From assembly GCA_905215145.1 (NCBI GenBank), contig CAJMOW010000039.1:1-9897 (forward strand): a stretch of DNA of 9,897 nucleotides, read 5' to 3'. The first letter of the stretch is position 1; every line of letters begins with the position of its first letter. Positions 1 to 9,897 of the stretch are shown piece after piece. This DNA comes from an uncultured bacterium. Lineage in GTDB: Bacteria; Bacillota_I; Bacilli_A; RF39; UBA660. Below the pieces are notes generated by a model. It saw nothing but the letters and a program-made list of their open reading frames with translations. It was not told where the DNA came from and did no database searches. Both the position numbers and the translations under genes were made by a program.

Positions 1-61
1 AAAGTATTACAATAACTTGTTGTCCATTTGAATTTTCAAATGTAACTTTACATGTATTCAT
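1..61 (-). CDS. Start of a small unidentified protein (partial, runs off the window)
   Basis: An ATG at 59-61 opens a frame that stays open to the window edge and encodes about 20 residues (MNTCKVTFENSNGQQVIVIL). It overlaps the end of the radical SAM gene by 14 bases, the same overlap seen between several upstream genes of this operon, which supports a real, translationally coupled start. Too little is visible to name a family. It lacks the QSxxDIITNSS motif at its N-terminus, so it is not an obvious seventh member of that set. It is probably the next gene of the same operon. Confidence 0.55.
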   Translation of the reverse strand, partial: MNTCKVTFENSNGQQVIVIL

Positions 62-659
62 ATTTAATTTCTTTTATAGGATTTAAGTTAAATGATGATG
101 GCGTTACTTTAATGGTATTATCTAAAAGAAGATTTTTAGATAGACTCTCAGGAGGATATAAATAGCATTTAATTTTGTTTTGATTGAGTAATGAATTATA
201 AAAATGTGCACCAAATGCAATTTTACCCCAATCTAAATCTTGTTGAAGTAAATATTCAAATGCATCTTCACTATATTTTTCTTTTGATCTACCAGATGGC
301 ATAAGAGGTAGTAACACAAAATATAATACTGCATATTTAAATTCTTTATAAATATCTAAGAATTTATTAACACTTTCAATATCTTTAATAATATAGTGAA
401 TATTAATATTTGTATTCCCAAAAGCATCTAATTTATATATAGCTCTCCTCCATGCTTTACTAATATGTTCTGACCACTCATTAGCAGAAACAGCAACTCC
501 TCCAACAAAACGAGAGGTATAGTCAAGTATTTTAGTACTAAGATCAGAGTCTTCTGCTATAGTAATACCGTTCGTTGTATAGTTTGGAACAATTCCTAAG
601 TAAAACAACGTTTCAAGAAATTCACAGAAGCTTTCGTGCAAACTTGGTTCGCCTGTTGA
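48..659 (-). CDS. Radical SAM enzyme, exon 2 (C-terminal two thirds)
   Basis: This exon supplies residues 98-300 of the radical SAM protein and ends at TAA (48-50). It opens with S-T-G-E-P-S-L-H, the conserved GEP segment that follows strand 2 of radical SAM barrels and helps bind S-adenosylmethionine. That motif cannot be an N-terminus, so the ORF-like ATG at 702-704 is intronic. Joining 659 to exon 1 at 2052 keeps the frame and gives the continuous sequence FQVAIG-STGEPSLHESF. The rest of the exon has barrel-like segments (PNYTTNG, VGGVAVSANEW, INIHYIIKD, YAVLYFVLLPL). Only two cysteines occur in the exon, so there is no SPASM or other auxiliary Fe-S cluster motif. All Trp codons are TGG. 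The substrate is unknown. Confidence 0.85.
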   Translation of the reverse strand, partial: STGEPSLHESFCEFLETLFYLGIVPNYTTNGITIAEDSDLSTKILDYTSRFVGGVAVSANEWSEHISKAWRRAIYKLDAFGNTNINIHYIIKDIESVNKFLDIYKEFKYAVLYFVLLPLMPSGRSKEKYSEDAFEYLLQQDLDWGKIAFGAHFYNSLLNQNKIKCYLYPPESLSKNLLLDNTIKVTPSSFNLNPIKEIKYEYM

Positions 660-2051
660 CGTTGGCGACAGTAATATTTCTATTACCACAGAGTACATTT
701 TCATCCTATAAAGGATGTCGCGCCCTTCAAAGTTTTATATTCTTCGTTAGAAGGTTCATCCATACTCGTTACACTACTTTAACATATTACCTTTAAAGTT
801 AGCACGGTGTTACCATATCACTTCTGACTTAGGTTTCACCGTTAGCCTCATTAGAGACCTCCGAATTTATTTCTTCGGATTGGCGCGATTCAATACCAGA
901 ATTACTTCCAGTATGGGCGATTTCGTATTTAATTTGATAAGTATATTTTGAAATAGAAGTTAAAGATTCAGAAATTAATCTACTAAATGCTTGTCCAAGA
1001 CGAATTTTATTTTTGCTTAAATATTCGCGAATACATTTTTTAGAAAAAGACCGATAAAGTAAATCATTATTGTTATATATAGAATATACATAAACTGAAA
1101 AATCATTATGATGCCTAAACGTATATGGACCTTTCCCATTTATTTTTTCTCGCATCTGTTTAGAAATATTATGCGAAATCATTCCGTATTTTTCTGATGC
1201 AGCTTCAAGCCCCTTTACAACATCTACCAATTCTCCAGACATATTGTATACATCAACTGTATATCCACGGCATTCTCTACTTTTCTCAATATTTAATCGT
1301 TTATCTTCATCTGATATTGTAACTCTATTTTTGGCTATAATATCTAACGAATCTCCATGATAAACAAAAATATGTTTTTTAGGTAATGTTAAACCTTCGC
1401 AGCAATTTTTGATTGTATTTCGTCCACAACAATATTTACGGTTAGCTTCTCTAATCGATCCAATAGTTTCAATAAATTCTCCTTCTAAAGTATAAACGTC
1501 AATAGATTTCCCTCGGGCGCTAGTTTGAATTTTTTTCAGTAATTGTTTTTGTTCTTCAGTCATAGGAACATTTTTGTTTCACGCAGACTTACCTTTATTA
1601 CTTTCTGAAATTTTTTGTCGTTTTTCTTCTGAACAAGGAGTATTAATTGTACCTATTCCTCCTTTAATTACATTATATCCAATAGACTGATCATAAGATT
1701 TAAACTTTTGGATATAATCTGTTTCTAAATCTCTTAATACTCTAATATCTTTTGGTACTTCTTTTAAAACTTCTATAATTTCAAACTTGAAATTTTCTTC
1801 TCCGTATTTAGTAAACGCGTTTTGTAGATGATAATTCTCATGTTTACCTAAACGAAGTAATCTTCGATGTTCATAAAGCCTTTTTCTTAAGTTTACTGAC
1901 GATCCTATATAAAACTTATTATTAATAGTATTGAGGATCCTGTAAATTCCACATTGTATCATAATATATTTATTTTTATTATAATACAAAAATAGGCAGT
2001 ATTTACACTACAACCAAATATACTTATAAATTAATACTAAAATTATTATTC
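660..2051 (-). ncRNA. Group I intron in the radical SAM gene, encoding a GIY-YIG endonuclease
   Basis: About 1392 nt separate two halves of one protein family. The proposed 5' site follows a T (exon GGT, base 2052) and the proposed 3' site follows a G (base 660), as group I introns require, and splicing restores frame. The 3' core is visible on the minus strand. P7 can form between GAGTA (plus 763-767) and TACTC (plus 691-695). A P8 hairpin is CATCC/GGATG (702-717). A P9 hairpin GTAATA-GAAA-TATTAC (671-686) has a GAAA tetraloop. A possible P1 pairs exon AATTGGT with GCCTATT (1991-1997), with one mismatch and a long loop; this is the weakest part. The endonuclease ORF sits between the 5' part and the P3-P8 core. 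Exact splice ends are inferred. Confidence 0.82.
829..1962 (-). CDS. GIY-YIG homing endonuclease with NUMOD3 and IENR1-type repeats (TGA read as Trp)
   Basis: With TGA at 1579-1581 read as Trp, two ORFs become one 377-residue protein. The ATG at 1960-1962 (MIQCGIYRIL) is chosen over the upstream TTG because the GIY domain starts right there. The nuclease domain spans residues 1-100: GIY at 5-7, YIG at 18-20, an Arg pair near 26-28, and a likely metal-binding Glu at 80 in the ExxYI context followed by GYN. A NUMOD3-type DNA-binding motif follows around 110-140 (SNKGKSA-W-NK), with the recoded Trp at 128 exactly where the motif normally has Trp. Two intron-endonuclease repeats follow (IDVYTLEGEF..., VDVYNMSGEL...), then a C-terminal tail. 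The stop is TAA. This is an I-TevI-like enzyme that would cleave the intronless radical SAM allele and spread the intron. Confidence 0.9.
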
Positions 2052-2342
2052 ACCAATTGCCACTTGAAATGGCCTTTCATTTTCTGTCATTTGTCCAAAA
2101 AAGAATTTAGCCTTTTCACAAATATCGGTATAGTTTACTCCCGAACTTTTAGCACTAACATAACACATTGGACAATTAAGATTACACTTAGTATTAATTC
2201 CAATATCATAAAACTCAGGATAATCAAGTTCACTAGCTTGTCCTGTTCCTAATCGGAGTGTTTTGAGATTATACCATATTGCATTATAATTTTTATCTGG
2301 AAATACTCTTCTCTTAATTCCCCAACTTGTCCAATCTTTCAT
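2052..2342 (-). CDS. Radical SAM enzyme, exon 1 (N-terminal, with the CxxxCxxC motif)
   Basis: This exon encodes residues 1-97 of a 300-residue radical SAM protein. The 4Fe-4S ligands are C53, C57 and C60 in CNLNCPMC, preceded by the strand YDIGIN. The enzyme would cleave S-adenosylmethionine reductively to a 5'-deoxyadenosyl radical. The ATG at 2340-2342 has a clear AGGAG ribosome binding site about 10 bases upstream, inside the last codons of the preceding gene, which stops only three bases before. Without splicing, translation runs one codon past the exon and stops at TAA (2046-2048), leaving a 98-residue truncated protein. The gene is last but one of an operon with six motif-bearing small proteins, which makes those proteins candidate substrates. 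Absence of a SPASM cluster argues against a classic sulfatase-maturase or sactipeptide enzyme. QueE- or NrdG-like roles are not indicated by the visible sequence. Confidence 0.88.
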
Positions 2343-2345
2343 AAT

Positions 2346-2714
2346 TTAATCTCCTAAATAATATCTAATTTTATAATTTGCTTTACCTATTTTCTTATTT
2401 AAAATTCCTTCAAAACCAGAAATATAAAACTCTTTTACGGAATTCTTACAATAAGGATAATCTACTTCAATCCATTTATCTGGCAATTCTTTATAAAACT
2501 GACTTTTTAGTTCTGATTCTTCGATGTTAGATTTAGAACAGTAATTAATACAAACATCTATTTCTGGTTCTTGCCTATATCCAACGATACTATCTAATAT
2601 CTGATATATTTCTTTAAGATGTTTTTCAGAAGTTATAGTACAAAATAATTCAGATGAACTATTAGTTATAATATCTGAATAGCTTTGAATTGGAATTAAT
2701 TTATCGATCTTCAT
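2346..2714 (-). CDS. Small protein F of the QSxxDIITNSSSE family
   Basis: This is a 122-residue acidic protein of unknown function. After a short hydrophobic lead (MKIDKLIP) it carries IQSYSDIITNSSSELF at about residues 9-24, the motif shared by five upstream genes. The remainder resembles none of them closely at sight. It has four Cys-containing patches (FCTI, VCINYC, PYC) but no zinc-finger spacing. I prefer the ATG at 2712-2714, giving a 14-base overlap with the previous gene as at its neighbours; an alternative ATG lies at 2721-2723 (MKYMKIDK, 125 residues). It ends at TAA (2346-2348), three bases before the radical SAM start, and its last codons contain that gene's AGGAG site. No signal peptide or membrane segment is evident. 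Confidence 0.85.
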   Translation of the reverse strand: MKIDKLIPIQSYSDIITNSSSELFCTITSEKHLKEIYQILDSIVGYRQEPEIDVCINYCSKSNIEESELKSQFYKELPDKWIEVDYPYCKNSVKEFYISGFEGILNKKIGKANYKIRYYLGD

Positions 2715-2997
2715 GTACTTCATAATTAAATAAACTTCTTAAAGAAGAAAGAATTACAGCCGCTTCAATACACTCTGTTGTATCTTGTTTTGGAGTAACC
2801 ATTAAATCTGAACTATCATCGTATAATATTTCAATTGTAAATAAATCATCTGCTTGAAGTGTAGATCCACTTATTTTAAGAAGATCATTAATAAGCTCTT
2901 TAACTGTGTTAATAGCAGTCTCCTTTACACGAATAAATACCTCTGTACTGCTATTTGTAACTATATCAGTAATACTTTGTATATTAATTATATTCAT
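2701..2997 (-). CDS. Small protein E of the QSxxDIITNSSSE family
   Basis: This is a 98-residue protein of unknown function. The ATG at 2995-2997 gives MNIINIQSITDIVTNSSTEVF, so the shared motif starts at residue 6 or 7. A GTG two codons upstream (3001-3003) is a weaker alternative. The body is acidic and probably mixed alpha/beta (TAINTVKELINDLLKIS looks helical, then a FTIEILYDD strand). It overlaps the upstream paralog by 14 bases and the downstream paralog by 14 bases. No Trp is present. The short length and strong N-terminal conservation fit a modular protein with a common N-terminal tag and a variable body. Confidence 0.83.
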   Translation of the reverse strand: MNIINIQSITDIVTNSSTEVFIRVKETAINTVKELINDLLKISGSTLQADDLFTIEILYDDSSDLMVTPKQDTTECIEAAVILSSLRSLFNYEVHEDR

Positions 2998-3295
2998 ATC
3001 CACTTGTTACAAAATATCCTCCATTCGGAAAATGCTCAGAAAGCAATTGTTCAATTAGTGCACATATATTTTCAGTAAGTTCTTCATTTTCTCCATATTC
3101 CACCTCAAATGTAATTGAATATGTTTTAATAATACACGACCTATGATATTTAACTTTAAATGGAAGAAAAGAATTTAAATAATCTTCAATATTTTGAATT
3201 ATCGTCTCAAAATCACTTTCTATAGAGCAAAACACAGTAGTTGATGAATTAGTAATTACATCAACATAAGACTGAATATTAATGCCAACTTTCGT
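2984..3295 (-). CDS. Small protein D of the QSxxDIITNSSSE family, non-ATG start
   Basis: This is a protein of unknown function of about 103 residues. A naive call would start at the GTG at 3233-3235 (MFCSIESD), but the frame stays open upstream to a TAA at 3323-3325. That upstream part encodes KVGINIQSYVDVITNSSTTVF, plainly the family motif, so the gene must start earlier. No ATG is available. Candidates are ACG (3293-3295, aligning with the MK start of paralogs), ATA (3302-3304) and ATT (3281-3283, which overlaps the TAA of the previous gene). The motif is the least conserved copy (TTV instead of SEL or TEV). The body is acidic with strands (SITFEVEYGENEE) and a helix (ICALIEQLLSEHF). The gene overlaps both neighbours. 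Confidence 0.78.
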   Translation of the reverse strand, partial: TKVGINIQSYVDVITNSSTTVFCSIESDFETIIQNIEDYLNSFLPFKVKYHRSCIIKTYSITFEVEYGENEELTENICALIEQLLSEHFPNGGYFVTSGYEYN

Positions 3296-3671
3296 AGTAT
3301 ATATTCGGATATAAAGAATCTCTTATAGCCTGCCATGTTTCATAATCCATATGATCCCCTAAAACTACAAAAGAACAATTTTTATACTTATCTAAATCAT
3401 TGTTTTTAATTGCTTCTCGTAGCGCGTTTCGATAGTCATCTATATCAAACCCGTCACATATTGTTTTAGGTGGATTTTTAAGATATTTTCTTATTTCAGG
3501 TAAGAGTATTTCTTTTCGTTCAAGATACCACTGAAGGTTTCCTATATTTTCTACATATAAAAAATCTTCAAATGCACTGCTATGTCTATCTCCTTTAACT
3601 ACAAATAATTCACTACTACTATTAGTAATAATATCCGAGAAAGATTGAGTTTTTAAAATAATTATTTTCAT
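3279..3671 (-). CDS. Small protein C of the QSxxDIITNSSSE family
   Basis: This is a 130-residue protein of unknown function. The ATG at 3669-3671 is one base past the stop of the preceding gene. The N-terminus MKIIILKTQSFSDIITNSSSELFVVKGD carries the shared motif at about residues 9-23. The rest is charged, with an aromatic-rich C-terminus (YETWQ, YPNIYYESWH) and three Trp codons, all TGG. Its 3' end lies inside the 5' part of the next paralog, so the two are translationally linked. No catalytic motif, transmembrane segment or signal peptide is recognisable. Confidence 0.85.
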   Translation of the reverse strand: MKIIILKTQSFSDIITNSSSELFVVKGDRHSSAFEDFLYVENIGNLQWYLERKEILLPEIRKYLKNPPKTICDGFDIDDYRNALREAIKNNDLDKYKNCSFVVLGDHMDYETWQAIRDSLYPNIYYESWH

Positions 3672-3672
3672 T

Positions 3673-4185
3673 TTAACCTAGATGATAACGTTTACCAAGT
3701 CGTTCAAATTTTTCTTGATATTCCCATGTAGGATTATCGTCTTTAGAATACATTGCAAAGGTAGTATCAGGGATCATTGCTCGAATTGTTCTTAAACCTT
3801 CAGGCAGATATTTAAGACTAAGTTTATTTATATTAGGATCCCAATTTTCGTAATCTTCATAAACAAATTTTGGTTTTAATCCAAAATGTTTAGCAACTCC
3901 TGTACGTTTTGTATTTTCCTTAGTAATAGGAATATTTCTAATTTCATAATCAAAATCTGACCCACCATATACCCATTCTAAATATGTAACTAATTCATCA
4001 TCACGCATTCTATTAACCTGTATTGGTTCATTATATTCCAGGTTCCAACAAGGATGAATTAAAGAAAGAATTAATACTAAATCTTCAAGCTCTCTATTTT
4101 TAAATACAAATAATTCGCTAGAACTATTTGTAATAATATCAGTTATAGATTGAATATTAAATTCAAATAAAATTTTAGTATTCAT
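3673..4185 (-). CDS. Protein B of the QSxxDIITNSSSE family (largest member)
   Basis: This is a 170-residue protein of unknown function, starting at ATG 4183-4185 (MNTKILFEFNIQSITDIIT). A TTG twelve codons upstream is possible but would lengthen the overlap and put the motif much farther from the N-terminus than in the paralogs. The shared motif DIITNSSSELF is at about residues 16-26. The body is rich in aromatics and charge (CWNLEYNE, LEWVYGGSDFDYEI, ENWDPN, TWEYQEK), with four Trp codons, all TGG. It overlaps protein A by 11 bases, and GGAGA just before the ATG could act as a ribosome binding site. Nothing identifies a known fold. Confidence 0.85.
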   Translation of the reverse strand: MNTKILFEFNIQSITDIITNSSSELFVFKNRELEDLVLILSLIHPCWNLEYNEPIQVNRMRDDELVTYLEWVYGGSDFDYEIRNIPITKENTKRTGVAKHFGLKPKFVYEDYENWDPNINKLSLKYLPEGLRTIRAMIPDTTFAMYSKDDNPTWEYQEKFERLGKRYHLG

Positions 4186-4651
4186 ATTCTCCGAAACTAA
4201 ATAAATCCGACAAATTTTCAATTTGCTGTTTTAATGCATCTGTATTAGGTATAGTAGTTTCAATTGTATAACGAGTAAAAATTAAACCGTACTGTACAGT
4301 ATCATTATATATTTTAGCCATTTCTAAAAGACTACTACCTACATTTGAGAGCATATTTTCAAGTAGATTCCATTTGCCTAAACGAACATATTCTAGAAAA
4401 ATATTAGAATCAATACCAGAATTTTCATAGACAATTTCAGCTAGAGTTTCTATCTGGCCACTAGACAAATCACTTAATGAATCATAATCAACTATTTCTT
4501 TAACAATAATCGATGAATTATTTATACCATAAACCTTTAAAATAGTATCAATAAGTAATTGTAGATCACTAGTTGAACCATTACTTATACAAAAGGTTTC
4601 AGTACTAGAATTAGTTATAATATCTCCAAAAGATTGAATAATAATTTTCAT
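4175..4651 (-). CDS. Protein A of the QSxxDIITNSSSE family (first gene of the operon)
   Basis: This is a 158-residue protein of unknown function. MKIIIQSFGDIITNSSTETF begins at ATG 4649-4651, so the motif starts only five residues from the N-terminus, the tightest placement among the six. The rest is acidic and probably largely helical (DLQLLIDTILKVYG, SGQIETLAEIVYENSG, NLLENMLSNVGSSLLEMAKIYND), ending in an aromatic-acidic tail (FSFGEYEY). It is the first gene after the hairpin at 4666-4693, with only 14 bases between the stem and the ATG. That spacing implies either read-through, a processing site, or a very short 5' leader. Confidence 0.85.
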   Translation of the reverse strand: MKIIIQSFGDIITNSSTETFCISNGSTSDLQLLIDTILKVYGINNSSIIVKEIVDYDSLSDLSSGQIETLAEIVYENSGIDSNIFLEYVRLGKWNLLENMLSNVGSSLLEMAKIYNDTVQYGLIFTRYTIETTIPNTDALKQQIENLSDLFSFGEYEY

Positions 4652-4665
4652 ATTTTAATAAAATA

Positions 4666-4693
4666 AAATAGGAGATCAAAAGATCTCCTATTT
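4666..4693 (-). terminator. Perfect 12-bp hairpin with U-rich tail between the nuclease and the motif-family operon
   Basis: AAATAGGAGATC and GATCTCCTATTT form a perfect 12-bp stem around a four-base loop (TTTT on the minus strand). On the minus strand the stem is followed by TTTTATTTTATT, which fits an intrinsic terminator for the replication module. The stem starts only four bases after the stop codon of the nuclease gene and ends 14 bases before the ATG of protein A. An RNA-processing or 5'-end-protecting hairpin for the downstream operon is therefore an alternative. The stem also contains AGGAG, so it could hide a ribosome binding site. Confidence 0.7.
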
Positions 4694-4696
4694 AGT

Positions 4697-5098
4697 TTAC
4701 AAATAATATTTTTTAATAAGCTTATAAAATAGTTTCTTATCCATAATAACAGCTTCTCCAACAGAACAAATATTTATTTCCTTCTTTTCCTGTTTATTTC
4801 AGATTAATACGAAATCTTCGTTATTAATAGATGATTCTTCTCTAATCTTAAAATAACTAGGAGTATTTTGTACACATTTTAGTTGTATTCCTAAAGGTAG
4901 TTTTTGTTCTGTATCAATTAAATCCTGTTTATTATCATCTGCTCTTTTACTTTCAGATCTTGAAGTTACTATTCCAGTAAATCCTAGTTCTCTTAACTCT
5001 TTAGCTATTCTAATTTCATACGAATGTCCTTTGACTCTAGAATATCCTTTAGATCGTTTCCTCTTTGATTTTATTTCTTCTGATACTGTCTTCTTCAT
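4697..5098 (-). CDS. PD-(D/E)XK-type nuclease, probably Holliday-junction-resolvase-like (TGA read as Trp)
   Basis: This is a 133-residue basic protein. In the standard code it would stop at TGA 4799-4801 after 99 residues; with Trp there it continues FVLI-W-NKQEKKEIN to TAA at 4697-4699. Residues 21-85 follow the pattern of small archaeal/phage resolvases and VRR-type nucleases: GHSYEIRIAKELRELGF with Glu 28 in the first helix, SRSESKRADDNKQDL with Asp 55 and Asp 59, then IQLKC with Gln 72 and Lys 74 as the (Q/E)XK element. It probably cuts branched DNA during replication or recombination. ATG 5096-5098 is preferred over the preceding TTG. It overlaps the primase gene by 50 bases, so the two are co-translated. 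The family call rests on motif spacing only. Confidence 0.75.
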
Positions 5099-6098
5099 CA
5101 ATATATTGTTTTGCTATATTAATTAAATTAATTGTTTTATCTAATCCGTACTTTTTATAAAAATCTGAAATATCTTTACAATGATACTTTCTCGGAATAA
5201 ATATAATAAATAAATCTGGATATTTTTTTCTAATCTTATTCATACTAGAAATCCCAGCAATGTCCGAATCATAGAATAAAACAATTTTCTTAAACTTAGC
5301 TTTTAAACGTTGATATTGGGAATCAGTTATAAAACAGTTTTCAGAAATTGGAGCAATAGCTGGAAGATTACTACATTCATATATAGTCATTACATCTTTT
5401 AGAGATTTTGTAATAACTAAATATTCTCCACCATTTCTTGGAAGTTGTTTAGCACCTTGTAATTGAATTTGTTTTCAATTAGAAATAAACTTATATTTTC
5501 TATTACCTGGATAGTAGATTCTTCATTGTTCTATATCATCTTTTATTCCTCCAAAATATCCAAATACTAGCTGGTTTTCTTTATATAAGTGAAATATTTC
5601 TCCATTTAAAAACACATTTTTACATGAGTAAACTCTAAATTTCTTCAAAGTTTCCTGCGAGATTCCAAACGATTGTCACCAATCTAATTCAAATCTATTT
5701 CAATCTTTTAACTCTACTTGAATAATAGCATTACCTTTATCTTCAAACTTCGTTTCAGAATATTTCTTAATTTTCGATGGATTAATGGTTAAATCTTTTC
5801 TAGAGATTATTCCAAAATCATTTGCAATTATTTGTAATGCTTTGTAAAAGGAGCAGCCAAATTTATACATTACTACCGATACACAATCTCCAGAAAAATC
5901 TCCTCGGAAATCTTTAAAGATAATTGTACCTTTTTTATTTCTGTAAAAAGCACAAGTTGGACGAGAATCAACTCTAAGTGGAGACTTAAATAAGCCTTTT
6001 TTGACAGGAATACCTAAATAATGCTCCATTAGAGTTTCTTCTCGCACTTTTGATAAAATCAATTCTTTGGTAACTGTCGGTTCTAATGTATAATTCAC
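5049..6098 (-). CDS. DnaG/TOPRIM-type phage DNA primase (four TGA codons read as Trp)
   Basis: This is a 349-residue primase. In the standard code it breaks into pieces at TGA codons 5700-5702, 5676-5678, 5523-5525 and 5475-5477 (residues 133, 141, 192, 208); no TAA or TAG interrupts the frame. The N-terminal domain (FKSPLRVDSRPTCAFYRN ... FKDFRGDFSGDCVSVVMY) matches the CHC2-like domain of phage primases, though the classic Cys/His zinc ligands are not intact. A linker (WWQSFGISQETLKKF, QGAKQLP) leads to the TOPRIM domain: LVITKSLKDVM at 227-237 and the metal-binding YDSD at 276-279, then PDLFIIFIPRKYHCKDISDFY. The usual TOPRIM Glu is replaced by Lys in ITKS. The start appears to be GTG (6096-6098), since no ATG lies between it and an upstream TAA at 6108-6110. 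It would synthesise RNA primers with the DnaB-like helicase encoded upstream. Confidence 0.9.
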
Positions 6099-6114
6099 TA
6101 AATATACTTAAATA

Positions 6115-6801
6115 CTAGAAGGGAAGGTCGTCATCTTCATTTGCATCTACTGCTCCAAAATCTGATTTCATATCACTTAGTACGTTATCAGATTTTGTCA
6201 TATTTGTTGGAGTTGCAGTCGCAGCAGCTTGAATTCGAGACATTTCATATGAAGAAAGAGTCAAATCCTTGCCAATTACTTTAGAACTAATATAAACAAT
6301 CCCCTCTCTATTAATACTAGCTACATAACTAGGAAGGCTTGCATATCCATTTTTATTTGGAAGCAGTTTAATTTGAGTTTGTGTACCAACTTTTGAATCA
6401 AGAATCTTTTTCAAAAGTTTTACAATACCATCAAACGAACTTGCTTTAAACTGAGCCTCTCCTTTTTCAATTTTTTCACCAGCTTCAGGATTTAGAGCCA
6501 TAATAAGTTGTTTACATTTAGCCATAAATTGTTCAGCAGGAGAAGCCTGTTCACGTTCAACTCCATTACGATCAGTTGTAGTCTTACGTTCAGCCGAAGT
6601 TGGTTCAAACATCTTATCATCGAAAATACCAGAACCGTCTACAGCTTCAAAATGAATATCAATAGTACCTACTGCATTAGGACCAAAGTCCTCTCCACGT
6701 TCAATCCCTTTAAATATTACATCATGAATTCCACATTTAAGACGATTATTTTCTACTACTCGTGCAGTCGCAACTGCACCCATATCAAACATATTTCCCA
6801 T
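6115..6801 (-). CDS. Putative single-stranded DNA-binding protein with C-terminal DDDLPF tip
   Basis: This is a 228-residue protein starting at ATG 6799-6801 (MGNMFDMGAV) and ending at TAG (6115-6117). The TAG falls right after the tip ANEDDDLPF, which shows that TAG is a true stop in this genome. An acidic tail ending in an aromatic residue is the hallmark of bacterial SSB and functional analogues such as T7 gp2.5, where it recruits replication partners. The body contains likely beta strands (CGIHDVIFKGIERG, GTIDIHFEAVDG, TQIKLLPNKNGYASLP, IVYISSK) consistent with an OB-like fold, followed by a low-complexity linker (AAATATPTN). It sits between another LPF-tailed protein and the primase, which supports a role in coating replicating DNA. 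No fold was verified. Confidence 0.72.
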   Translation of the reverse strand: MGNMFDMGAVATARVVENNRLKCGIHDVIFKGIERGEDFGPNAVGTIDIHFEAVDGSGIFDDKMFEPTSAERKTTTDRNGVEREQASPAEQFMAKCKQLIMALNPEAGEKIEKGEAQFKASSFDGIVKLLKKILDSKVGTQTQIKLLPNKNGYASLPSYVASINREGIVYISSKVIGKDLTLSSYEMSRIQAAATATPTNMTKSDNVLSDMKSDFGAVDANEDDDLPF

Positions 6802-6844
6802 AGTTATATTAATTTATAATAATTTATTAATTTTTCTGTATTAA

Positions 6845-7366
6845 TTAAAACGGAAGAGAATCTTCTTCATCAGAAACTGTAGAGTTAGTAATAATTTCGT
6901 TTGCAATATCTTCTAACTCAATTTCTTCATCTTTTAATTCTTCTGAAACTATTTCTGAATCACTATCGTTCAAAGGAACTAGTTTAAATATATGTTCTTT
7001 AAATGGTTGTAATTCAAAAACAGTTCCATATTCTAATAATATTGTCCTTTGATTTCCTCTAAAAGACACAGTATTAGATTTTGTTAATTTATTTCCTGCT
7101 TTTTTATCTGTAAAATATTCAGATTTAGCAATTACAGGAAATGTTTTTTCTTTTGATTCCTGAAAATAATTGATAGATATTCTATCTTCAGGATTAGCAT
7201 CTAGGAAAGCTAAAGCAGTATCTGAAATAATTAATTTATTTGCAGTAACTTCTACAATAGCTTTTCCAGTAGTATCTCGTTTAACAGTAACAGAAGTCGA
7301 ATTAGTAACAGTTAAATTTGATACCTTTTTAGTTGTTTCATCAAAATCAAATGATATTTTAAGCAT
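6845..7366 (-). CDS. Replication-module protein with SSB-like acidic tail (DEEDSLPF)
   Basis: This is a 173-residue protein rich in beta-type alternation (LKISFDFDETTKKVSNLTVTN, FPVIAKSEYF, RTILLEYGTVFELQPFKEHIFKLVPL) with a long acidic C-terminal region of about 40 residues ending SDEEDSLPF. The tail is almost the same as that of the next gene downstream, although the bodies do not look alike. The ATG (7364-7366) overlaps the end of the Sak4-like ATPase by eight bases, and the gene ends at TAA. It is probably a second ssDNA-binding or replication-accessory protein. The family could not be named from sequence. It has no Trp. Confidence 0.65.
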   Translation of the reverse strand: MLKISFDFDETTKKVSNLTVTNSTSVTVKRDTTGKAIVEVTANKLIISDTALAFLDANPEDRISINYFQESKEKTFPVIAKSEYFTDKKAGNKLTKSNTVSFRGNQRTILLEYGTVFELQPFKEHIFKLVPLNDSDSEIVSEELKDEEIELEDIANEIITNSTVSDEEDSLPF

Positions 7367-7540
7367 TTCTTAACGAAGGATAAATTTGAGTCCAATCATA
7401 AACAACTGTTCCATCTTCTTGATATTTACCTAAAACAATATCTTTATTTCTAAGATGAGCAGGTCTTGCTCCACATTCAACAAATTTATCATTAGTATTG
7501 AAGCTTAAAATAGTGTTAGATTCATCATCGCGATACAAAT
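7359..7540 (-). CDS. Sak4/RecA-like ATPase, exon 2 (C-terminal)
   Basis: This exon encodes the last 60 residues or so of the ATPase: YLYRDDESNTILSF..., CGARPAHLRN and a C-terminal segment YDWTQIYPSLRNA, ending at TAA 7359-7361. It has no start codon of its own. Adding AT from 7540-7539 to the single T left over from exon 1 makes a Tyr codon (residue 184) and restores the run DAIG-Y-LYRDD that I recognise from phage AAA/Sak4 proteins. Its stop overlaps the start of the next gene by eight bases. Confidence 0.85.
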
Positions 7541-8478
7541 CATTTATACTCGGTTTTTAAACCTATTTTTGAACCAATTAATAATAGGCTCTTTTTGTTT
7601 ATAAGATAATTTATTAATATACTTTTGCATTTCTCCGTTAATGACTTGCACAGGAGATAATTGCTCTAATAAATATCTTGCAAAAACAGCTTCTTCATAT
7701 GTAATAAACCAAGGGCTGCGATATGTTTTACCTTTTATGGCAAACCTAGCCATAAAACGTTTTGTTCTATTTATATCAGAATGTTGATCGATCCCTTTAA
7801 TATCAAAACGTGTATTCTCTCGACAATGTTGATTATAGTTCTGTACAGTTTGATTTGCAAATCTAAGATTAGATTTTCGATTATCAAATGTATTTAAATT
7901 AATGTGATCAATCATTTGCCCTGGTTTTGCATCCATTATATATCTATGATAATAACCAACGTCATTACTTACAAGATATATTAGTTGAGTAGATTTCGTA
8001 GGTTTAGTAGAATGCCATTTATATAAACTAACTCTATTTATATCTTCTAAATCTATTTTAAATTTATGAAGAGGTTCATTATTAATATTATATGTAACGA
8101 TTTCGGCATAATTTTTATGTAAAATTATTTCGTTTGGATCGTACTTGCTTCTAGGATTTGAATCAAGAAACTTTCCATATTGTTGTAGTTGTGTAGCATG
8201 TTTACGACATAATGTGCCTCTCCCATAAAAAATTTTTCCACAATGCTTACATATGTGATTTTTATAATATTTTTTATTCATGTTTTTGGTTCGAGATTAG
8301 ACTATATCATATTCCTAATTTTAGGAACCCTCCTTGTAGTCGTTGAGGCTATTTTAATCGCCTGCTGATTGTCCAATCTTAATCATTTTTACCCTTTGGT
8401 AGATTAAGCTCTAAGGAGTTTCCAGCATATACGAGGTTTTCGATAATTATTACTAATTAAAGGGGCATTCTTAAGTTA
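7541..8478 (-). ncRNA. Group I intron in the ATPase gene, encoding an HNH endonuclease
   Basis: This 938-nt intron has a well-formed core just after the 5' splice site. P1 can form between exon GGGT and GCCC about 13 bases into the intron, with the T-G wobble at the splice site. The core has the classic elements: GGACAATCAGCAGG in the P3/P6 region, CTCAACGACTACA (R) and ATATAGTC (S). P7 pairs GACTA (plus 8337-8341) with TAGTC (plus 8300-8304). P8 is the hairpin TTCCTA/TAGGAA (8312-8327). The 3' end after G at 7541 restores the protein frame. Unlike the intron in the radical SAM gene, the endonuclease ORF lies 3' of P7. A CTCG before it (near 8292-8295) can pair with CGAG after it (7550-7553), so the ORF may sit in a P9-type loop. 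Confidence 0.9.
7544..8281 (-). CDS. Intron-encoded HNH homing endonuclease with AP2-like DNA-binding domain
   Basis: This is a 245-residue protein. An N-terminal zinc-ribbon-like motif has C11, C14, C25 and H28 (ICKHCGK ... LCRKH). The HNH_3-type nuclease core lies at about 110-150: H112, then IDHINLNTFDNRKSNLRFANQ, with D125/H126, N134 and NLR at 138-140. An AP2-like domain follows (about 160-208: IKGKTYRSPWF, TYEEAVFARYLLEQ). This domain order is typical of phage intron HNH enzymes that cleave the intronless allele. It starts with ATG 8279-8281 and stops at TAA 7544-7546, only three bases before the inferred 3' splice site, so the coding region and the splice-site sequence are tightly constrained together. 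Its three Trp codons are TGG, unlike the TGA-bearing GIY-YIG enzyme. Confidence 0.92.
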   Translation of the reverse strand: MNKKYYKNHICKHCGKIFYGRGTLCRKHATQLQQYGKFLDSNPRSKYDPNEIILHKNYAEIVTYNINNEPLHKFKIDLEDINRVSLYKWHSTKPTKSTQLIYLVSNDVGYYHRYIMDAKPGQMIDHINLNTFDNRKSNLRFANQTVQNYNQHCRENTRFDIKGIDQHSDINRTKRFMARFAIKGKTYRSPWFITYEEAVFARYLLEQLSPVQVINGEMQKYINKLSYKQKEPIINWFKNRFKNRV

Positions 8479-9028
8479 ACCCAATTGCATCGCTTTTAGA
8501 AGCTAAAATACGTCCTGTTTTACCTAACAAGTCAATTTGCTTCGCTGTTAAATCACTATTTGCAATAGCTGCATCTTTAGCATGACAGACAAGTATTACA
8601 TTTCGAGTACACTTAGCAACCATATTAATAACTTGCTCTAAAGCATCTCTCATAAATTTATACCCAGCTCCCATTGCCGCGTCAATGACATCAGTGCCAG
8701 TAAACTTCTCTCCAGCAGGAGTTTGTTTATACAGGTGTAATGCTAAATGTTTAACTATATCTTCTAACGCTGTAACTGTATCAATTGTAATAAAATCGTA
8801 AGGTTTTCCAGCTTTAATTACTTCTTGACAAACTTCTTTAATATCTTTTACAGACGTTACTCTAACTTTAAGTGCTTCAATATATGCTAATCCACCTTCA
8901 GTATCAAGCATCAAGTTATTAGGAAGTTCTGCAAGAGCTGAACTTTTTCCTTGTTTAACTTTTGAGAATATAATTAAATTTCTCGGATCTTGTGTTTCTG
9001 CAGGTAGTTTAGATTTTGGCAATTCCAT
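8479..9028 (-). CDS. Sak4/RecA-like ATPase, exon 1 (N-terminal three quarters)
   Basis: This exon encodes residues 1-183 plus one base of codon 184 of a 243-residue ATPase. The P-loop is SKVKQGKSS (22-30), which keeps GKS but lacks the usual first Gly. Walker B is YDFITIDT with Asp 83, and a later strand VILVCHAKD lies near 170. The architecture LIIFxKxKxGKS ... LPNNLMLDTEGG ... TIDTVTALE fits the AAA_24/Sak4 family of phage RecA-like single-strand annealing or recombination ATPases found in crAss-like replication modules. Unspliced RNA gives a stop (TAA 8471-8473) two codons past the exon. The ATG (9026-9028) is two bases after the helicase stop, so they are co-transcribed. The next two genes encode proteins with SSB-like tails, plausible partners. 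Confidence 0.88.
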
Positions 9029-9030
9029 AA

Positions 9031-9583
9031 TTAAAACGTATATTCAGTATTAGTTCTTATTATCTTTTTATCTATATCATTTTCTGATAAATCTTGTTGT
9101 ATAATACGTTTTGTTTTACACGGAATGTTTAGAGAAGGTTCTCTAATTAATTTTATATCAGTAATTTGTTCGGGTAAAGGTAATTCTGTTCACCAACCTA
9201 CGGAGCCATAAAATCCACAATTTAAGACTTGATTAGCAATTCCATATCGATTTTTACTTATAATCAACCCTCTATATGTGTCTCTTAATCCTCCTCCATT
9301 TTCACCTAATATTTTATATCCTCTACAAGTAGAAAGTTTTTCTCTAGCAGGATAAAATATTTGTAAGGTTACATCGCTATCATTTACAGGAGCACTTGAA
9401 GCCATAATATCATTTAAACCTGGTTCAGATAAATCAGCTTTTCTTCTATCCATAGAAGAAGATTCTCTATTTTGCTGCATAATCATAAATCAAGATATTC
9501 GATATTTACGCTTAAGCGTTACCATATAAGAAGATGTTAAATCAATTTCTTCCTTTATTTTCCTACCTTCTTCTAATTTTAAT
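9031..9583 (-). CDS. dnaB: DnaB-like replicative helicase, C-terminal exon (TGA read as Trp)
   Basis: This is the C-terminal part of a hexameric replicative helicase. It contains KKEEIDLTSSYMVTLKRKYR, then IMQQNRESSSMDRRKADLSEP (the Q-Q-N-R and S-x-x-x-R-R segment of the DnaB RecA fold), DSDVTLQIFYP, and GLIISKNRYGIANQVLNCGFYG. Two in-frame TGA codons, 9490-9492 and 9190-9192, are read as Trp (ISWF and GWWTELP); the second extends the protein by about 53 residues to TAA 9031-9033. The upstream limit is uncertain: the frame is open to 9591, and a TAA at 9592-9594 shows the exon cannot extend farther. A 3' splice site after G at 9584 or 9573 would work. Walker A and B lie upstream of the window, beyond the intron. 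The apparent ATG at 9484-9486 is internal. Confidence 0.85.
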
Positions 9584-9897
9584 CAATTTTGTTATCCTAG
9601 AAGTTTTTTATCTTCCAGTTCTTATAGTTTCCTATAAGTTCGGCATACATTTTCATCTTCATTTAAGTAAGATGTCAAACACTCTTGGAAACATTTTATT
9701 CTAATTTCTTAGGTTCAGTTTCTATGCTCTACGATAGCTTAGACTCTTTAGTTTCTAAGCTTATCTCGGTATTAGCATGATAAAAATCATCAAATACTTT
9801 CTTCTTACGTAAAAGAAAAAAGTCTGCATTTGTATATATCAGCTTATAAAATTTTTTTAAACTTTTGCACTATATTATGCCCGTAAAATATACAATC
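9584..9897 (-). ncRNA. 3' part of a third group I intron, in the helicase gene (continues beyond the window)
   Basis: Between the helicase exon and the window edge there is no helicase sequence, but a group I 3' core is visible. P7 can pair GCATA (plus 9723-9727) with TATGC (plus 9643-9647). P8 is the hairpin CATCTT/AAGATG (9654-9674). P9 is a 7-bp hairpin CTTATAG-GAAA-CTATAAG (9621-9638) with a GAAA tetraloop. The string ATGAAAATGTA before the 3' P7 strand is the same as in the intron of the radical SAM gene, so the two introns are probably related. The 3' splice site lies between about 9560 and 9591 and is not resolved. The 5' part is outside the window. Confidence 0.75.
9729..9897 (-). pseudogene. 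C-terminus of an intron endonuclease, LAGLIDADG-like, with apparent frameshift
   Basis: Two short overlapping frames encode consecutive parts of what looks like one C-terminus. The first (CIFYGHNIVQKFKKI) runs off the window edge and stops at TAA 9844-9846. The second (KFYKLIYTNADFFLLRKKKVFDDF) lacks its start and ends at TAG 9729-9731. Removing one A from the seven-A run at 9852-9858 joins them. The pattern YxLIYTNADxxLxRKKxxF resembles the end of phage LAGLIDADG intron endonucleases (usually LYxxAxIYLxRKYxxF). This could be a decayed gene, a sequencing or assembly error in the homopolymer, or programmed slippage. Its stop sits two bases before the P7 strand of the intron. Confidence 0.45.

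Follow-up and report, generated by a model that had tools for sequence, protein, structure and literature searches.

A conserved N-terminal Asn-Ser-Ser tag and the radical SAM enzyme that accompanies it in phages, bacteria, and archaea: a probable tag-directed protein-modification system

Why should six consecutive small genes begin with almost the same short run of amino acids, diverge after it, and lead directly into a gene for a radical S-adenosylmethionine (SAM) enzyme? The question is raised by a 9,897-nucleotide stretch of DNA from an uncultured bacterium of the RF39 lineage (GenBank assembly GCA_905215145.1, contig CAJMOW010000039.1, positions 1 to 9,897 of the forward strand; hereafter the window), in which an earlier, sequence-only reading had seen a candidate phage modification system. 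The shared N-terminal motif, which we call the tag, is conserved and is associated with one group of radical SAM enzymes across phages, bacteria, and archaea. We consider it probable that the two form a tag-directed protein-modification system, in which a dedicated radical SAM enzyme recognizes the tag on several protein families and uses radical chemistry to alter a residue in the Asn-Ser-Ser core.

The window derives from a phage in which TGA is a Trp codon. Under this reading (code 4), four TGA codons fall within the primase frame and one each within the RusA-like frame and the endonuclease frame; contigs of 161 and 179 kb, among others, bear relatives of the window's radical SAM enzyme. 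Every gene of interest lies on the minus strand. All six of the motif-bearing genes described earlier were recovered with their tags from the open reading frame (ORF) list and the sequence.

4175 to 4651, minus strand: gene F, tagged protein, 158 aa
4592 to 4624, minus strand: tag of F, DIITNSSTETF
3673 to 4185, minus strand: gene E, tagged protein, 170 aa, from ATG at 4185 (TTG at 4221 in the ORF list)
4108 to 4140, minus strand: tag of E, DIITNSSSELF
3279 to 3671, minus strand: gene D, tagged protein, 130 aa
3603 to 3635, minus strand: tag of D, DIITNSSSELF
2984 to 3322, minus strand: gene C, tagged protein, about 101 aa, extent given stop to stop
3230 to 3262, minus strand: tag of C, DVITNSSTTVF
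2701 to 3003, minus strand: gene B, tagged protein, 100 aa
2935 to 2967, minus strand: tag of B, DIVTNSSTEVF
2346 to 2723, minus strand: gene A, tagged protein, 125 aa
2643 to 2675, minus strand: tag of A, DIITNSSSELF

From F to A (4651 down to 2346), neighboring genes overlap or almost touch, with the TNSS segments at 4615, 4131, 3626, 3253, 2958, and 2666 (minus strand), and the radical SAM gene follows downstream; its start at 2342 lies, as had been noted, three bases beyond the end of gene A at 2346. In five of the genes, 9 to 16 residues precede the tag. The exception is gene C, whose start is ambiguous: upstream of its tag there is no ATG, GTG, or TTG, and in-frame ATT, ATA, ATC, or ACG codons are present, which may reflect an uncommon start codon or an error in the sequence.

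The six tags of the window align as Q-S-x-x-D-[IV]-[IV]-T-N-S-S-[ST]-x-x-F. Any two agree at 9 to 14 of the 15 residues and use identical codons at just 3 to 10 of those, while the invariant serines are encoded by AGT, AGC, TCT, or TCA, that is, by both AGY and TCN codons. This variation of synonymous codons and of the serine codon sets between copies indicates that the tag has been kept at the amino acid level and is no recent DNA copy, and that selection acts at the protein level. A degenerate DNA pattern allowing up to two mismatches matched two of the six copies and nothing in 200 shuffles. Across the phage and bacterial sides, the general form is [D/G]-Φ-[VI]-[TS]-N-S-S-[ST]-x-x-[FY]. Among 94 unique phage tags, in which the regular expression fixed [TS]-N-S-S-[ST] and left positions -3, +8, +9, and +10 free, serine occupies -3 in 88, glutamate +8 in 83, and [LVI] and [FY] occupy +9 and +10, respectively, in all 94. 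The 28 unique bacterial-side tags align without gaps and mostly read D/G-F-V-[ST]-N-S-S-[ST]-T-S-F. N-S-S is present in every tag read, even where its neighbors are altered, as in the diverged tag AMNSSGNVYF (locus L042), with the proviso that N-S-S was built into the regular expressions, save in one search.

Does the tag travel with the enzyme? We approached this from both directions. Starting from the enzyme, 81 loci were collected with the radical SAM gene as the sole criterion, drawing on IMG/VR and on a single genome for each GTDB species, and tagged ORFs were called by a match to [TS]NSS[ST] close to a start codon. A tagged ORF lies within 2.5 kb of the radical SAM gene in 78 of the 81; in L023 and L037 a tag is found farther away (in L023 on the opposite strand), and L042 carries its diverged tag 0.5 kb upstream. 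All 140 tag matches near the enzyme gene are on its strand, at least one of them (in L077) being a wrong-frame match beside a true tag. Tag density is 3.17 per 10 kb within 2.5 kb of the enzyme versus 0.146 per 10 kb in the remainder of the same loci; as all 14 matches in the remainder look like true tags, the real background would be near zero. On one 147-kb viral contig (L043/L160), the stretches read contain eight tag ORFs of the FVTNSS type, and six of these are distant from the radical SAM gene of the contig. In a control set from five of the genomes (30 of 183 PF04055 matches, about 3.4 kb each, with about 1.5 kb per side), no tag was found near any of the 30 other radical SAM genes.

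In the reverse direction, a degenerate DNA pattern for D[IV]ITNSS[ST]E scanned over IMG/VR retrieved 40 stretches on 38 viral contigs, 37 of which carry the radical SAM enzyme: 25 were, by name, already among the contigs found through the enzyme, and 12 of the other 13, when searched whole, encode it at E<=5e-58. The thirteenth (G007, 22 kb), which has no match to the enzyme, holds three tag genes that point at the contig end, with the last tag at base 734. Could such a pattern stem from coincidence or from the shared ancestry of related phages? Many of the loci are indeed near relatives, the 81 collapsing to 61 clusters at 90% identity. However, a near tag remains in 58 of the 61 clusters, and the pairing recurs, with differing gene orders, in Lak, Microcystis, Thermus, and pseudo-T-even phages, in Alphaproteobacteria, in a deltaproteobacterium, and in archaeal contigs; this explanation is hence largely refuted, and we give it next to no credence.

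Named phages offer further instances. Thirty-four named-phage records matched the radical SAM enzyme, and all 24 records matched by the Lak tag peptide (15 Lak phages, 8 Microcystis phages, and cyanophage MaMV-DH01, with some duplicates) fall among them. Of the other 10, Arash, D479, and phiYS40 carry tags of different wording, and the one Mycobacterium prophage read, out of two, shows no tag; the remainder includes five further Thermus phage records. In Prevotella phage Lak-A1, the radical SAM gene is followed by five tandem tag genes (VFETNSSS), and a tag gene lies less than 2 kb from the enzyme gene in Microcystis phages MaMV-DC and LMM01, Vibrio phage D479, and Thermus phage phiYS40. Pseudo-T-even phage RB43 encodes two exact tags (proteins CCK73964.1 and CCK73969.1; tag peptide MKIRSGFVSNSSSSSF); its radical SAM enzyme is CCK74014.1, and that of its relative Lw1 is Lw1_gp161. 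Over this group, 174 records (D479 included) contain the radical SAM enzyme, while one RB43 tag protein is found in 174 records and the other in 175, and the counts of enzyme and tag protein nearly agree from one host genus to the next; the group is one clade and was counted as one event. In Salmonella phage Arash, gp146c joins the tag (RYGFATNSSSSHSV) and the radical SAM domain in a single 476-aa chain. The functional link, which the sequence-only reading had drawn from co-location, is accordingly backed by co-occurrence in both directions, a gene fusion, controls, and a wide phylogenetic spread; the search for tag carriers without the enzyme, or the reverse, which that reading had named as its test, favors the link with few exceptions (78/81 loci and 37/38 contigs).

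The fusion also bears on a rival explanation, namely, that the tag plays an inert part in structure or targeting (as a hairpin, a partner-binding segment, or a protease or localization signal), with the radical SAM enzyme making a product such as a nucleotide or cofactor that the tagged proteins use, so that enzyme and tagged protein never meet as enzyme and substrate. The coupling of one enzyme group and one tag over several body families, together with the tag-enzyme fusion, would be hard to explain without contact, and the window enzyme scores just 20.5 bits against the viperin NCBIfam cut-off of 180. We consider this account improbable.

Is the pairing peculiar to phages? In Alphaproteobacteria, Verrucomicrobia, a deltaproteobacterium, and others, a tag mostly reading MKIKxDFVSNSSSTSF is found directly upstream of the radical SAM gene, the usual order being a protein of about 800 to 1065 aa, one of about 120 to 167 aa, the tagged protein (about 133 aa), and the enzyme (candidate operon loci L049, L056, L063, L075, L077, L078, and L081). 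All eight of the large proteins scanned show a NACHT or NPHP3_N match, a few above and most just below the Pfam cut-offs, and partial matches to Avs2 models; at the N terminus, five of the eight have a SMEK domain and one (L078) an esterase-like DUF676 domain. The putative STAND ATPase of these operons is like Avs2 (AVAST type 2) in its partial matches, but unlike it in being shorter than the profile and in scoring far below the cut-off of the Avs2 equivalog model NF041813 (44.0 bits in L049 and 64.4 bits in L081 versus 1000). To our knowledge, Avs2 comes without a radical SAM enzyme or a tagged partner. The operon is found on Rhizobium, Agrobacterium, and Rhodobacter plasmids (seven plasmid records, three of them read) and on IMG/VR contigs, and in Rhodobacter sp. 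CZR27 its four genes are CK951_RS19770-19755; the annotations on the three plasmids read are SMEK domain-containing protein, hypothetical protein, and radical SAM protein. Contigs labeled Helarchaeota and archaeon (L055 and L080) also hold the tag-enzyme pair. A profile of the bacterial tag protein (A3) had matches in 3 of 297 genomes and in 2 of 289, counts that take in the query genomes; three of the genomes were new, and one of these (L169) has an adjacent radical SAM gene. A changing N terminus on a constant STAND core, scarcity, and carriage on plasmids or viral contigs are usual for defense systems, and we regard the bacterial operon as a candidate defense operon with a putative STAND/NACHT ATPase. 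This suggests that, in the bacterial form, the modified protein works with the Avs2-like STAND ATPase in defense. The earlier description of a phage modification system consequently stands as regards the tag-enzyme link and falls short as regards its confinement to phages; modification of the tag is the role that we propose for the enzyme.

What chemistry might the enzyme perform? The radical SAM gene is present where the sequence-only reading had placed it, but it is split by an intron, whose position at 2051 to 660 implies that the frame at 48-704, taken at face value, consists of exon 2 plus the intron tail.

2052 to 2342, minus strand: radical SAM enzyme exon 1, with CxxxCxxC as CNLNCPMC (sequence and family scan)
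660 to 2051, minus strand: intron, 1392 nt (from the uninterrupted relative P0001)
829 to 1989, minus strand: intron ORF, a homing endonuclease of the GIY-YIG type with NUMOD3 and a single TGA codon for Trp (family scans)
48 to 659, minus strand: radical SAM enzyme exon 2, with VPNYTTNG; the C-terminal PPES...TPSSF replaces the SPASM cysteines (sequence and alignment)

The spliced enzyme has 300 aa and differs at 4 positions (99% identity) from P0001, an intact, uninterrupted 300-aa relative. The intron ends fit the group I rule (U before the 5' cut and G as the last intron base); an Rfam search of the intron gave no credible match. Elsewhere in the window, at 7359-9028, a second gene seems to be split, with an ATPase-like frame (8471-9028) and a short frame (7359-7538) on either side of an HNH-like ORF (7544-8281), as judged by eye without a family search; the interruption is perhaps another intron with a homing endonuclease.

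The window enzyme belongs to the radical SAM superfamily by its CxxxCxxC cluster motif and PF04055 (TIM-barrel) core. Family scans matched it to neither SPASM model (PF13186 or TIGR04085), and the alignment bears out the earlier remark that it lacks SPASM cysteines: where 34 bacterial-type sequences have Cys in 94%, the same columns hold H249 (93%), E268 (97%), and S285 (100%) in 40 phage sequences, which have no invariant Cys besides the three cluster ligands. Among the bacterial enzymes scanned (L049, L081, and L056), TIGR04085 is matched in L049 and L081, at 32.6 and 33.5 bits versus a cut-off of 27, and the Pfam model falls just below its cut-off in L081 and L056. The C terminus of the phage enzyme (in 48-659) has an invariant T-x-S-S-F that resembles the tag itself and aligns with the SPASM “xPCSF” of the bacterial relatives. 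The VPNYTTNG signature, which accompanies the six tags in the window, is kept both among the 40 phage sequences and among the 34 of bacterial type; in part this follows from the search itself, for which VPNYTTN served as one of two patterns. The enzymes of Lak, MaMV-DC, D479, RB43, and Arash group with the VPNYTTN enzymes but lack the exact signature, and in a tree of 50 radical SAM cores the 32 of the tag-linked group split from all 18 controls (support 0.79), a result to be read with the uncertainty of deep radical SAM alignments and the small number of controls. With no further invariant cysteine, the phage enzyme is less likely to carry out Cys-quenched epimerization or cluster-assisted thioether formation. 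The phage clade would thus use a chemistry that needs neither SPASM auxiliary clusters nor a Cys hydrogen donor, and a redox-neutral change, or one consuming SAM, would fit it better.

Turning to the proteins that carry the tag, we clustered 100 bodies by single linkage (E<1e-3) into 8 groups and 14 singletons, the largest group having 43 members. In the window, A and C fall together in a group of 15, B in the group of 43, and E in a group of 12, with D and F matching nothing; for the six proteins, once described as paralogous, this is shown for the tag only. Gene E has 193 relatives at E<=0.001, two of them in phages named Wendovervirus sonii (Lak), and in an alignment of 48 rows (the query and 47 of the 193 hits) the tag holds 10 of the 16 invariant columns. 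PHROG 7397 and 28997, both of unknown function, include tag proteins. The C-terminal part of RB43 tag protein 1 (L213:22550-23017) matches PHROG 132 (head-tail adaptor, E 3e-10); hence, a body already known in untagged form may also occur with the tag. In P0131, a relative of F and E, the N-terminal half resembles gene F and the C-terminal half gene E by eye, and it appears to be a recombinant between adjacent tag genes. In the predicted structure of E, the per-residue confidence score pLDDT is low over residues 1-20, averaging 56 and 49 by block, and the first strand begins at residue 24, directly behind NSSS. A conserved, flexible N-terminal stretch on different bodies has the look of a recognition or modification site.

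Two further explanations are to be weighed here. A RiPP (ribosomally synthesized and posttranslationally modified peptide) cluster, with the tag as leader and the C-terminal part as a core peptide that is cleaved and exported, would accord with the best structural matches of the enzyme model, the peptide maturases SkfB and SuiB, and with the occurrence of several precursors per enzyme in RiPP systems. Against this, 92 of the 94 unique tagged ORFs are 87 to 281 aa long rather than short precursors, the one structural model has a folded domain directly behind the tag, and no protease or exporter was matched among the 10 window frames scanned. General family scans, which did not include an RRE-specific model, turned up no RiPP recognition element (RRE) in the enzyme, and its model shows only short strands before the barrel. 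We rate this explanation as very unlikely. Less remote, if still unlikely, is that the tag serves solely as a leader-like docking element and that the enzyme alters a residue elsewhere in each body: the tag precedes the folded part in the sole model, is conserved as a docking element would be, and in RiPP systems the conserved N-terminal part is usually the leader and not the site. However, N-S-S is retained even where its neighbors have changed (L042), and a common site would be hard to see in several body groups without detectable likeness.

Taking these findings together, we favor modification of the tag itself. The enzyme likely acts on the tag, and the NSS core, as it survives in the most diverged copy, is the likely site. 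The tagged protein would be made first; the radical SAM enzyme would then bind its tag tail, and a 5'-deoxyadenosyl radical would abstract a hydrogen from the NSS core, with the resulting change achieved, in the phage clade, without an auxiliary cluster. Thereafter, the phage tagged proteins would probably act inside the host and the bacterial ones with the STAND ATPase. The six phage proteins most likely have an accessory role during infection, which is the weakest step of the proposal.

Several observations weigh against modification of the tag. In RB43, about 20 and 24 kb separate the tag genes from the radical SAM gene, with no tag gene within 6 kb, and Lw1 and KP15 have no tag within 6 kb of theirs. 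The Mycobacterium prophage, whose enzyme matches that of Arash over 71 residues only, has no tag in the 10 kb examined. Two of the genomes retrieved with the bacterial profile, L170 and L171, show no VPNYTTN radical SAM enzyme in the 1.9 and 2.7 kb examined, but the L170 tag stands right where its contig begins, and the L171 match covers 37 residues of a frame of 408 aa. As SPASM is absent from the phage enzyme and present in its bacterial relatives, a single chemistry for all is not assured, and likeness of a modeled fold to peptide maturases does not in itself indicate function; viperin, MoaA, and GDGT-MAS are also among the structural matches of the window enzyme. The structure prediction covers a single tagged protein (E), and with 43 of the 100 bodies in one group, “unrelated” is valid between groups only.

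How does this compare with known systems? Radical SAM enzymes that modify proteins are known. The anaerobic sulfatase-maturating enzymes (anSME), which go with the formylglycine motif, depend on auxiliary SPASM clusters, and their target is C/S-x-P/A-x-R within sulfatases that are related to one another. The tag has a different motif, the phage enzyme lacks auxiliary cysteines, and the proposed substrates span several families. The anSME substrate motif was considered for the tag and rejected, [TS]NSS[ST] having no Pro or Arg at those places, and no sulfatase domain was found in the window's tagged proteins (all six in one family scan, and five, without gene C, in another). The sactipeptide and streptide maturases SkfB and SuiB contain SPASM clusters as well as RRE domains, and their substrates are short precursor peptides, whereas the window enzyme lacks SPASM and its proposed substrates are proteins. 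We know of no radical SAM enzyme dedicated to a portable tag shared by full-length proteins from several families, and of none paired with NLR-like immune ATPases; the kind of enzyme is familiar, and the portable tag and STAND pairing have no precedent known to us. Among the matches listed from NCBIfam, Pfam, PHROG, and PADLOC, none names the tag-enzyme pair, and literature searches by tag strings and topics found no description of it. The closest parallel in print concerns vWA-MoxR conflict systems, for which a radical SAM enzyme has been proposed to modify a peptide-effector from another standalone gene (Kaur et al. 2020, PMC7159879). The passage concerned likewise couples a radical SAM enzyme with the product of a separate gene in an NTPase conflict system, but it describes another NTPase (vWA-MoxR, FtsH ternary systems) and contains no tag and no phage form (PMC7159879).

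More speculatively, with odds that we put somewhat below even, the tag could be a pan-prokaryotic modification code: one radical SAM group would modify the NSS core, bacteria would thereby license a protein that partners STAND immune ATPases of the NLR-like kind, and phages ranging from about 150 kb up to megaphage size would carry the code on up to eight proteins, possibly mimicking or disarming those systems. The tag-directed system can be tested in the E. coli phages of the RB43 group, as RB43 has the enzyme and two tagged proteins. If true, the tag, of about 12 residues and genetically encoded, would with its one modifying enzyme provide a labeling tool. It would also give a starting point for understanding many “hypothetical” phage proteins, and it would constitute a new class of posttranslational modification common to phages and their hosts.

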